Shown piece after piece: positions 47,399-51,079 of a stretch of 64,000 bases of DNA. Location of the stretch: the NCBI RefSeq assembly GCF_003724155.1, contig NZ_RJJQ01000014.1, positions 1 to 64,000 of the forward strand, read 5' to 3'. Numbering within the stretch: position 1 is the first letter of the stretch; the number at the start of each line of letters is the position of its first letter. Made by a program: the position numbers and the translations under genes. The stretch is from Flexivirga caeni. GTDB lineage: Bacteria; Actinomycetota; Actinomycetes; Actinomycetales; Dermatophilaceae. The notes beneath the pieces are model-generated. The model made no database searches and was not told the DNA's origin. It saw only the letters and a program-made list of their open reading frames with translations.

Positions 47399-50300
47399 AT
47401 GGCGATCATCCACTCCGGCGCCAGCCTGACGCCCTCCAAGCCGGAGCTCGTCGAGGCCTGGATCGCCGAACAGCGTTGGTATGCCGGCAAAGGCAGCGCA
47501 CCCAAGCTGCGGCCACTCGGCAGCTACCGCTTCGACGACCCCGACGGCGAGGTCGGTCTCGAGGTCCTCTTCCTGGTCGACGGGTCCGGTGCCGCGCCGG
47601 TGACCTACCAGGTGCCGCTGACCTACCGGGCAGCTCCGCTCGCGGGCGCCGAGAGCGCACTGGTCGGCGAGCTGCAGCACTCGGTGCTGGGCCGGCGGTT
47701 CGTCTACGACGCCTGCCATGACCCGGTCTTCGTGCGCGCTCTGCTGCGCGCCATGGTGACCGGCGGGCGGCAGGCCGAGTTGGAGACCCACGACGCGTCG
47801 GGCACGATCGGCCGGCGTGACTCGCCCGTGACCGTGCACGGCAGCGGCTACCGGCACGCCGCCGTTCCCGTGGTCACCGCAAGTCGTGTGCTGTCCGGCG
47901 AGCAGTCCAACACCTCGGTCATCGTCGACACCGACGATGACAATCCGTTGATCATCAAGGTCTTTCGCGTGGTGCACGCCGGAGACAACCCGGACGTCAC
48001 GCTGCAGACCGCGCTCAGCGCAGCAGGCAGCGAACGGGTTCCCCGCATGGTCGCGTCACTGCGCGGCAGCTGGCCGGTGGCCGGCGGGAGCACCGGATCG
48101 GGCGACCTGGCGTTCGCGCAGGAGTTCTTCCCCGGGGTGCGCGACGCCTGGCGGGAGGCGTTGCAAGCGGCCATCGAGGACCGCTCCTTCGTAGCTCCTG
48201 CGCACGCCTTGGGCGCCGCGACCGCCGAGGTCCACGCGCAACTCGCCGCGGCGATGCCGACCGCCACGAGCACGACGACATCGATCGCGGCCCACCTGGA
48301 CGGGATGCGCCGGCGCTTTGCCTCGGCGGTGCAGGAGGCCCCCGAGCTGGCGGAGCACCAAGCGGCGTTCGAGACCCTGGTGTCGGAGGCGCATAGCGCG
48401 GACTGGCCTGCGCTGCAACGGATCCACGGTGACTATCACCTCGGCCAGGCGCTCGACATCGCCGGCCGGGGCTGGGTGCTGGTCGACTTCGAAGGTGAGC
48501 CGCTGCGCACCCTCGCCGAGCGCAACGAGCTCGACGTGCCGTTGCGCGACCTCGCCGGCATGCTGCGATCCTTCGACTATGCGGCCGGGTCGGTCGAGCA
48601 GGGTGACCCCGCCGCATCCCGGCGCGATTGGGCAGGTCACGCGCGGGAGGCGTTCCTCGCCGGGTATGCCGCGCAGAGCGGGACGGACCTGTCGGCATAC
48701 CGGGATCTGCTGGCGCTGTTCGAGATCGACAAGGCTGCCTATGAGGTGGTCTACGAAGCACGCAACCGGCCGGACTGGCTGGACATCCCCCGCAGCGCGA
48801 TCGACAGGCTGTTGCCGGCGACGAGGAGTAGAAGCATGAGTGACGATGGTGACGACCGAGACGAGCACACGAGCGGAGCCGCTCCCACCAGCTTGAGCCG
48901 GGAGACCGCCGACGAGCTGCTCGCCGGCCGGTATGGCGACCCGCATCGCCTGCTCGGCCCGCACGTCGACGAATCTTCAGCATTGGTGCGGGTTTTCCGG
49001 CCGCTCGCAGAGACTGTCGAGATCCAGCTGCCGGACGGTTCGCACGCACCGCTGCAGCACGACTACGAGGGCATCTGGAGCGGCCGGCTGCCGAGCGCCG
49101 AAGTGCCGGACTACCGCGTCGTGACCACCTACGACGACGGCGTCGAGCATGTGGCCGACGACCCCTACCGCTTCCTGCCCACCCTGGGCGAGGTGGATCT
49201 ACACCTGATCGCCGAGGGGCGCCACGAGCAGCTGTGGACGGTGCTCGGTGCCCATGTGCGGCACTACGACGGCCCGCAGGGCTCCGTCGACGGGACGTCT
49301 TTCGCGGTGTGGGCGCCGAACGCACGCGGTGTGCGGCTGGTCGGCGACTTCAACACGTGGAGCGCGCAGGGCCATCCGATGCGGCGGCTGTCCGGTGGCG
49401 TATGGGAGCTGTTCGTGCCGGGGGTCGGCGCGGGAACGCGTTACAAGTTCGACGTCCTGGGCCCCGACGGCGTATGGCGTGAGAAGGCCGACCCGCTCGC
49501 CCGTCAGGCGGAGGTGGCGCCTGCCACCGCGTCGGTCGTGACGGACTCGTCATACGACTGGGGCGACGACGACTGGCTGCTGCAGCGGTCGCAGACCCAG
49601 GCGCACGAGCGGCCGATGAGCATCTACGAGGTGCACCCGATGTCCTGGCGGCAGGGTAAGTCGTGGCGCGATCTCGCGTCCGAACTCGTCTCCTACGTCA
49701 CGGAACTCGGCTTCAGCCACGTTGAGTTCATGCCGGTGATGGAGCACCCCTATCCGCCGTCGTGGGGATACCACGTCACCGGCTACTACGCGCCCAACTC
49801 GCGGCTCGGCGACCCCGACGACTTCCGCTTCCTGGTCGATGCGCTGCATCAGGCCGGCATCGGCGTGATCCTCGACTGGGTGCCCGGACACTTCGCGACC
49901 GACGAGTGGGCACTGGCCCGATTCGACGGCACGGCGCTCTATGAGCACCCGGACCCCCGGCGCGGCTGGCACCCCGAATGGGGTTCGTACATCTTCAATT
50001 TCGGCCGCCCCCAGGTGCGCAACTTCCTCGTCGCGAACGCCATCTACTGGATGCAGGAGTTCCACGCGGACGGGCTACGCGTCGACGGGGTCGCGTCAAT
50101 GCTCTACCTCGACTATTCGCGGGCCGACGGGGAGTGGCTGCCCAACAAGCACGGTGGCCGGGAGAACCTCGAGGCCGTGCAGTTGCTGCAGGAAACGAAC
50201 GCCACGGCATACCGGCGGCTGCCCGGGACCTTCATGGTTGCGGAGGAGTCGACCTCATGGCCGGGCGTCACCAAGCCGACCGACCAGAACGGGCTCGGCT

Positions 50301-51079
50301 TCGGCTTCAAGTGGAACATGGGCTGGATGCACGACACGCTGGATTATGTTGCGCAGCAACCGATTTACCGGCGCTACCACCACGACAAGCTGACTTTCTC
50401 GCTCGTCTATGCGTGGAGTGAGCAGTTCGTCCTCCCGGTCAGCCACGACGAGGTCGTGCACGGCAAGGGTTCGCTGCTGCGCAAGATGCCGGGCGACCGC
50501 TGGACGCAACTGGCCGGGGTGCGTGCCTTCCTGGCCAACATGTGGGGCCACCCGGGCAAGCAATTGATCTTCATGGGGTGTGAGTTCGCGCAGGAGTCGG
50601 AGTGGGCCGACGGGCGCAGCCTGGACTGGTGGCTGCTCGACCAGCCGGCCCACCGCGGCGTCGCCGAGCTGGTCGTCGACCTCAACCGGGTCTACACCGA
50701 GCACCCGGCACTGTGGAAGCTCGACCACCAGCCGGCCGGCTTCCAGTGGATCGACGCGAACAACAAGGACGCAAACCTCTTCTCCTACTTGCGTTTCGAG
50801 GACTCCGAGCACTCCGGCGACGTGGTCGCCGCGATTGTGAACTTCAGCGGGTCCGAGGCGCGCGACGTGCGCATCGGCCTGCCGCGCGCCGGACGCTGGC
50901 TGGAGGCGCTCAACACCGACGCCGAGCGGTATGGCGGTGCCAATCGCGGCAACCTGGGCGGTGTGACCGCTGACGCCATACCGGCGCACGGGCAGGAGTT
51001 CTCGGCAGTGATGACCGTACCGCCGCTGTCGGCGGTGTGGTTCGTGCCGGAAGAGTCGGAGGGCATGCCGTCCGAGTAG
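47399..51079 (+). CDS. Maltokinase fused in frame to glycogen branching enzyme
   Basis: One uninterrupted frame of 1226 residues. Residues 1-479 are a maltokinase (Pep2/Mak): cap domain with WIAEQRWYAGKG, then kinase motifs QRIHGDYHLGQ (about 341-351) and VLVDFEGEPLR (about 360). Residues 480-1226 are GlgB: CBM48 (FAVWAPNARGVRLVGDFNTW), VILDWVPGHFATDEW, nucleophile Asp in DGLRVDGVASMLYLDY (about 895), acid/base Glu in MVAEESTSWPGVTKP and LPVSHDEVVHGKGSL. The junction still contains a full ribosome site and ATG (48823-48838) at which free GlgB would start. Maltokinase makes maltose-1-phosphate for GlgE; GlgB adds 1,6 branches. The kinase start (ATG 47399) follows the treS stop by 3 nt. Confidence 0.88.
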   Translation: MAIIHSGASLTPSKPELVEAWIAEQRWYAGKGSAPKLRPLGSYRFDDPDGEVGLEVLFLVDGSGAAPVTYQVPLTYRAAPLAGAESALVGELQHSVLGRRFVYDACHDPVFVRALLRAMVTGGRQAELETHDASGTIGRRDSPVTVHGSGYRHAAVPVVTASRVLSGEQSNTSVIVDTDDDNPLIIKVFRVVHAGDNPDVTLQTALSAAGSERVPRMVASLRGSWPVAGGSTGSGDLAFAQEFFPGVRDAWREALQAAIEDRSFVAPAHALGAATAEVHAQLAAAMPTATSTTTSIAAHLDGMRRRFASAVQEAPELAEHQAAFETLVSEAHSADWPALQRIHGDYHLGQALDIAGRGWVLVDFEGEPLRTLAERNELDVPLRDLAGMLRSFDYAAGSVEQGDPAASRRDWAGHAREAFLAGYAAQSGTDLSAYRDLLALFEIDKAAYEVVYEARNRPDWLDIPRSAIDRLLPATRSRSMSDDGDDRDEHTSGAAPTSLSRETADELLAGRYGDPHRLLGPHVDESSALVRVFRPLAETVEIQLPDGSHAPLQHDYEGIWSGRLPSAEVPDYRVVTTYDDGVEHVADDPYRFLPTLGEVDLHLIAEGRHEQLWTVLGAHVRHYDGPQGSVDGTSFAVWAPNARGVRLVGDFNTWSAQGHPMRRLSGGVWELFVPGVGAGTRYKFDVLGPDGVWREKADPLARQAEVAPATASVVTDSSYDWGDDDWLLQRSQTQAHERPMSIYEVHPMSWRQGKSWRDLASELVSYVTELGFSHVEFMPVMEHPYPPSWGYHVTGYYAPNSRLGDPDDFRFLVDALHQAGIGVILDWVPGHFATDEWALARFDGTALYEHPDPRRGWHPEWGSYIFNFGRPQVRNFLVANAIYWMQEFHADGLRVDGVASMLYLDYSRADGEWLPNKHGGRENLEAVQLLQETNATAYRRLPGTFMVAEESTSWPGVTKPTDQNGLGFGFKWNMGWMHDTLDYVAQQPIYRRYHHDKLTFSLVYAWSEQFVLPVSHDEVVHGKGSLLRKMPGDRWTQLAGVRAFLANMWGHPGKQLIFMGCEFAQESEWADGRSLDWWLLDQPAHRGVAELVVDLNRVYTEHPALWKLDHQPAGFQWIDANNKDANLFSYLRFEDSEHSGDVVAAIVNFSGSEARDVRIGLPRAGRWLEALNTDAERYGGANRGNLGGVTADAIPAHGQEFSAVMTVPPLSAVWFVPEESEGMPSE
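48823..48838 (+). promoter_or_regulatory. Internal ribosome site and ATG inside the maltokinase::glgB fusion
   Basis: GAGGAG (48823-48828), seven bases, then ATG AGT at 48836. A 747-residue GlgB, the usual size, would start here. A TAG in another frame lies just after GAGGAG, so loss or gain of a base could have fused two genes. Confidence 0.7.

Follow-up and report, generated by a model that had tools for sequence, protein, structure and literature searches.

Within a 64,000-nucleotide stretch of the Flexivirga caeni genome (contig NZ_RJJQ01000014.1, positions 1 to 64,000 of the forward strand; this whole stretch is called the window below), the genes for maltokinase (Mak) and the glycogen branching enzyme (GlgB) are joined in a single gene, mak-glgB. 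Comparison with related sequences makes it probable that this one gene gives two products, the Mak–GlgB fusion and a free GlgB initiated inside the frame. The frame is open from its ATG to a TAG over 1226 codons, without any stop between the two parts and with both enzymes complete, so that the joined frame described in the initial annotation is confirmed. The junction reads GAGGAG (48823–48828), spacer TAGAAGC and an in-frame ATG (48836–48838), which is precisely the GAGGAG-N7-ATG arrangement reported there. In the genome of the window the fused gene is both the sole Mak match and the sole full-length GlgB match.

Both halves of the fused protein carry the domains expected of them. Pfam places Mak_N_cap at residues 21–108, with 107.5 bits against a cut-off of 22, which identifies the first half as a maltokinase, followed by GlgB_N (502–590), CBM_48 (616–701), Alpha-amylase (764–835) and Alpha-amylase_C (1117–1217). 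The HGDxHLGQ and DFEGEP motifs, which we take to be kinase-core motifs of maltokinases (Mak/Pep2), are invariant across 16 sequences at H343–D345, H347–Q350 and D363–P368. Equally invariant, in 13 sequences, are the GlgB columns D870, E923/E924 and D991 (residues 896, 949/950 and 1017 of the fused protein), presumably the GH13 catalytic Asp/Glu/Asp with either Glu as the acid. The curated cut-offs of two GlgB models are passed (NF003811, 945.7 against 741; TIGR01515, 883.5 against 463.95). The NCBIfam model NF011293 (PRK14705; 1224 positions) aligns through its positions 4–1223 to residues 8–1218, scoring 1380.1 bits, below its curated equivalog cut-off of 2376; the protein shares the NF011293 architecture and is not an equivalog by the rule of NCBI. 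Among the 25 listed of the 28 NCBIfam models matched, curated cut-offs were passed only for branching-enzyme models, and name-based annotation can therefore miss the maltokinase and give the impression of an incomplete GlgE pathway.

The junction was compared across 230 loci, composed of 30 from a genome search (the other enzymes L002–L005 being excluded), 80 named ones found via a Mak alignment and 120 stretches drawn from part of the matches of a family survey, in which 181 of the 186 genomes searched had a match. Defining as fused a locus whose linker is free of in-frame stops, we found 75 fused loci, 126 with separate but adjacent genes, 24 without a downstream GlgB and five too short, the 24 and the five (with too little upstream sequence) being omitted from the counts. 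Removal of duplicates (L036, L037 and L038, fused; L050, separate) left 72 fused genes, while L180, apparently frameshifted in a draft contig, was counted as separate. In keeping with use of the fusion, the 72 linkers, open in frame by this definition, contain stops in the other two frames in 59 and 44 cases. An internal site was accepted when an ATG or GTG in frame within the linker had a Shine-Dalgarno 5-mer 5–16 bases upstream. Such a site is present in 51 of the 72 fused linkers, compared to 12.6% of codon-shuffled linkers, 9.3% of GlgB stretches of equal length, 4/72 in frame +1 and 0/72 in frame +2. Codon shuffling also rules out that the Shine-Dalgarno-like bases are a by-product of linkers rich in Glu, Gly and Arg. 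The clade of the window has the site in 17 of 22 genes (1.7 expected), the Micrococcaceae in 13 of 16 (1.4 expected), a third clade in 14 of 17 (4.4 expected) and genes outside these clades and genus code g70 in 7 of 8 (0.8 expected). With one gene taken per genus, a mean of 22.6 of 30 have it, against 3.2 expected, and the same start signal is found in 105 of 125 separate glgB genes. The initial annotation had the internal start left in place after the fusion. It is indeed in place, but its frequency lies well beyond chance in clades made up of fused genes alone, so it is probably maintained and not merely left over. This evidence for selection on the start appears to be new, as far as our literature searches reached.

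The sites also resemble true starts in other respects. Over the 51 sites the Shine-Dalgarno core falls in each of the three phases relative to the codons (17, 19 and 15), i.e., with different peptides and the same bases, so selection seems to act on the bases and not on the peptide. Position 2, directly after the internal start, is occupied by Thr or Ser at 33 of 51 sites, compared to 19% in linkers. Mean folding energy over 40 bases is −5.8 at the internal sites, −7.3 at separate glgB starts and −11.2 at other Met or Val codons of GlgB, the 17 sites of the clade of the window averaging −6.2. Shine-Dalgarno and start combinations occurring by chance within the enzyme domains (87 sites, 46 loci) have a mean of −11.7 (p = 8e-15 against the internal sites), and the profile 32–80 bases away from the start, in both directions, lies between −10.1 and −13.5. 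These chance sites and the flanking profile rule out open mRNA as a general trait of the linkers. In the window, folding energy is −5.1 at the internal site and −12.7 at the start of mak, the internal site being the more open, and only 2.7% of codon positions in the frame are equally unfolded. Among 733 internal in-frame ATG or GTG codons in 38 coding-like open reading frames of the window, 15 have a Shine-Dalgarno 5-mer, and the mak-glgB site is one of two of these with a folding energy of at least −5.1. Separately, the frame at 6571–7929 (− strand) has an internal ATG at codon 97 with a Shine-Dalgarno 5-mer and open mRNA, perhaps its true start or a second internal one.

Several observations weigh against a second product. 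The clades compared were picked after inspection of the tree and their rows are related, so that P values overstate the certainty and serve as a guide only. Single clades favour one codon phase of the Shine-Dalgarno core (13/17 in the clade of the window, 13/13 in the Micrococcaceae), and in the window the Shine-Dalgarno-like duplex at the start of mak (−8.4) is about as strong as that at the internal start (−8.7). The 5-mer site is absent from 21 of the 72 fused genes. The clade of genus code g70 (L126, L134, L136, L139, L144, L146, L153, L154 and L190) has it in none of its nine genes, where 1.1 were expected, and a GTG site with a duplex energy of −7 or lower occurs in two of the nine, the internal start of this clade seeming weakened or lost. 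With these nine among the 21, the second start is evidently not needed for the gene to persist. Nor did a reason for needing free GlgB emerge from the content of glgA/glgM or glgC, the genes of the other glucan route. Among fused genomes, 54 of 56 have glgA/glgM and 54 of 56 have glgC, the genome of the window having both; both are present in 37 of 38 genomes with the 5-mer site (the exception, G192, 82% complete, has neither) versus 17 of 18 without it (G012 has neither). A link between a kept start and a second glucan route was rejected on these counts.

Only the fusion might be made, the internal Shine-Dalgarno and start being relics of a once separate glgB, now hardly used, an alternative that we consider unlikely, though the best of those available. 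In its favour, 12 of the 72 fused genes have no internal ATG or GTG with a duplex energy of −6 or lower, and in six of the 11 of them that lie in searchable genomes (G008, G022, G027, G061, G149 and G160) no full-length GlgB-like match other than the fused gene is present, so the fusion alone can suffice there. No GH57 branching enzyme was found in the 10 genomes tested, which comprise nine of the 11 and that of the window and cover five of the six sole-GlgB genomes (all but G149); the fusion is likely the source of branching activity in those six. The other five of the 11, all from g70, have a second full-length GlgB-like protein, distant and 32–35% identical. The candidate rule that the fusion is the sole GlgB wherever the start is lost was accordingly rejected, being true in six of the 11 genomes and false in five. 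However, a relic lying in a fast-changing linker should decay to the shuffled background of roughly 8–13%, while the site is retained in 17/22 genes of a clade that is fused throughout and in 13/16 of the Micrococcaceae, with low mRNA structure as well.

Two further alternatives dispense with internal initiation. Shine-Dalgarno-like pausing has been proposed in bacteria, and the purine-rich site, placed as it is at the domain boundary, might serve as a translational pause, giving maltokinase time to fold ahead of the emergence of GlgB. We find this improbable, as a pause needs no well-spaced start codon in frame, no Ser or Thr as second residue and no unfolded mRNA, all of which are present. 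Slightly less probable still is the release of free GlgB and Mak through proteolytic cleavage of a flexible linker. The linker does vary in length and sequence and is predicted to be disordered: in an AlphaFold model, positions 449–470 (residues 475–496) have a confidence (pLDDT) below 50 (blocks of 26–31). This model (mean pLDDT 71, pTM 0.45, from an alignment of 13 rows) is largely poor in the catalytic domain and was used only for linker confidence, from which a flexible tether is predicted. Proteolysis, though, leaves the conserved ribosome-binding site unexplained.

A sequencing error that conceals a stop between truly separate genes, to which the out-of-frame TAG in the 7-base spacer of the window might point, is excluded in practice because the fusion is found in each of the five genomes examined from the genus, the linkers differing in length and all staying in frame, and in 22 of 22 genes of the clade. 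No TAG occurs in the spacer of L006, from the same genus, or of L007, from a different genus within the family, and both are read through in the same frame. In the genus of the window, L018 and L019 have a linker expanded before the Shine-Dalgarno and ATG, in L018 by repeats of ~16 residues (GEPTPTPAGRVGPAPQ), and in L017 the junction segment looks duplicated.

The same fusion recurs among homologues (75 of the 230 loci, and five of five examined genomes of the genus), and the initial suggestion that it is unusual did not survive: of 144 loci in the family of the window, 53 carry the fusion, 88 have the genes separate and three are too short, and NF011293 already models the architecture. Fused named genomes include Arthrobacter, Pseudarthrobacter, Paenarthrobacter, Leekyejoonella, Ornithinimicrobium and Pseudokineococcus, and none of the Streptomyces loci examined that have a downstream GlgB are fused. 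A class-wide survey of 148 genomes gave a one-piece, stop-free, full-length match in G000 and G040 only, a result that yields no fusion count, since G013 and G064, fused by locus classification, gave matches split in two and most separate Mak matches were lost to the E-value limit.

On a tree of 196 Mak plus GlgB rows (72 fused and 124 separate, L093 being dropped for a GlgB start identical to that of another row), the fused label changes at least 10 times, nine of the changes being forced by well-supported branches; gain and loss are indistinguishable, and one of the changes (L180) may be the draft-contig frameshift. The clade of the window contains 22 genes from 11 genus codes, all fused, with linkers of 20–139 residues. 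Close relatives illustrate how a fusion differs from its separate counterparts. In genus code g23, L159 and L173 are separate, the glgB start following or overlapping the mak stop, and in one of them a single stop codon alone separates mak from glgB in the identical frame; in the fused L177 the mak stop is absent, the Mak tail is longer and the Shine-Dalgarno-GTG start of L159 and L173 is retained. A second sister pair repeats the pattern, the fused L014 having the start used by the separate L224. In many unfused relatives (e.g., L166, L178 and L181) the GlgB core lies at an almost fixed distance of 41 bases from the mak stop, in line with conservation of an overlap between this stop and the glgB start.

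We therefore return to one gene with two products, of which the initial annotation's pair, a bifunctional enzyme and free GlgB, is supported by comparative evidence. The mak stop codon would have been lost within a tightly packed glgE-treS-mak-glgB row, and ribosomes arriving from treS would translate mak and continue via the linker into glgB to give the 1226-residue protein. The former glgB ribosome-binding site and start, judging from their conservation, would still load ribosomes and add free GlgB of 747 residues. Mak would then never be free and exist only joined to GlgB, with translation putting GlgB at or above Mak, and the free GlgB could serve glucan of any route, including the GlgC/GlgA–GlgM route encoded in the genome. 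A possible benefit would be local concentration on the growing glucan together with extra GlgB for the GlgC/GlgA–GlgM route; this is only a guess because the genes of this route do not discriminate genomes by site. The coupling of maltose-1-phosphate supply to branching that had also been suggested is speculative; since GlgE, the user of maltose-1-phosphate, acts between the two enzymes as a separate protein, Mak is not expected to hand a product directly to GlgB. By a narrow margin of belief, we favour a broader view of such 'leaky fusions' in the Micrococcales as a two-product gene of old origin, formed or lost repeatedly and with its start under selection; translation, and not copy number or promoter, would set GlgB above Mak, no Mak would occur unfused, most GlgB would be the free form, and one clade would be nearing obligate fusion.

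The fused gene is the last member of the row glgE-treS-mak-glgB, all on one strand (Table 1), with only 6 bases between glgE and treS and 3 bases from the treS stop to the mak ATG. A phosphorylase-like gene (40901–43570) lies upstream in the direction opposite to glgE. Downstream, the frame at 51158–53140 (− strand) has a pro-kumamolisin activation domain and, in Pfam at E 0.001, no peptidase domain.

Table 1. Location of mak-glgB, its parts and its upstream neighbours within the window.
Feature	Position	Strand	Basis
Fused mak-glgB, bifunctional product of 1226 aa	47399..51079	+	Open reading frame, Pfam, NCBIfam, relatives in genus
Maltokinase (Mak) part, residues 1–473	47399..48817	+	Residues 21–472 align to solved maltokinase 4u94 (8–440); Pfam
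Linker, residues 474–501	48818..48901	+	Junction comparison and AlphaFold pLDDT
Shine-Dalgarno core GAGGAG	48823..48828	+	7 bases before internal ATG; duplex with anti-Shine-Dalgarno −8.7 kcal/mol
Internal in-frame start and putative free GlgB, 747 aa	48836..51079	+	Sequence and comparative evidence
Branching-enzyme part (GlgB_N, CBM48, GH13 catalytic, C-terminal)	48902..51079	+	Residues 506–1217 align to solved branching enzyme 3k1d (12–721); Pfam
glgE (maltosyltransferase), upstream of mak-glgB	43616..45667	+	Pfam GlgE_dom_N_S, GLGE_C
treS (trehalose synthase), between glgE and mak-glgB	45674..47395	+	Pfam Alpha-amylase, Malt_amylase_C; name inferred from place, length and domains

Two proteins becoming one is the customary reading of a gene fusion; the present case suggests instead that fused and separate forms may come from one gene in the long term. 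Lineages appear at differing stages, from separate with overlapping genes, through fused with the start kept, to fused with the start weakened or lost, and this series is natural material for testing why enzymes fuse. In practical terms, the maltokinase half may be invisible in pathway surveys based on names.

As a kind, the Mak–GlgB fusion is not new. NF011293 (PRK14705) matches the window protein in order and extent and models this very fusion, although its name, '1,4-alpha-glucan branching enzyme', cites GlgB alone and the entry is silent on an internal start. The literature search for PRK14705 returned no paper, and the parts of PMC4331664 and PMC4921024 available to us contain nothing on a Mak–GlgB fusion; searches on fusions and internal starts, covering papers in part, gave no report of this fusion or of its internal start, which may still be in print. 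In the portions of the literature consulted, bifunctional TreS–Mak fusions are described in the GlgE pathway (Pseudomonas, Estrella and others; PMC11046441, PMC7935935, PMC6509496), and TreS–Mak fusions as well as independent Mak are reported in actinobacteria (PMC4306142, PMC2885305, PMC6509496, PMC11046441). As in the window, Mak is there joined to an enzyme of the same pathway, but as the C-terminal partner of TreS; in the window TreS stands alone and Mak forms the N-terminal side of the fusion with GlgB. In GlgA–GlgB of Waddliaceae and Criblamydiaceae and MalQ–GlgB of Neisseria suica (PMC7935935, PMC11046441) GlgB likewise follows another glycogen enzyme as the C-terminal half, the partners being different. 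The GlgB part of GlgA–GlgB is reported as apparently non-functional, while the GlgB domains and conserved residues of the window are intact. A parallel to the proposed second product is Cas11, which has been shown experimentally to arise by internal in-frame translation from cas8/cas10d (PMC11899642). In both cases one frame would have a second, internal start from which the C-terminal product is made separately; the Cas11 start is known by experiment and gives a subunit, while the start in mak-glgB is inferred, would give a full metabolic enzyme and was the enzyme's own before the fusion.

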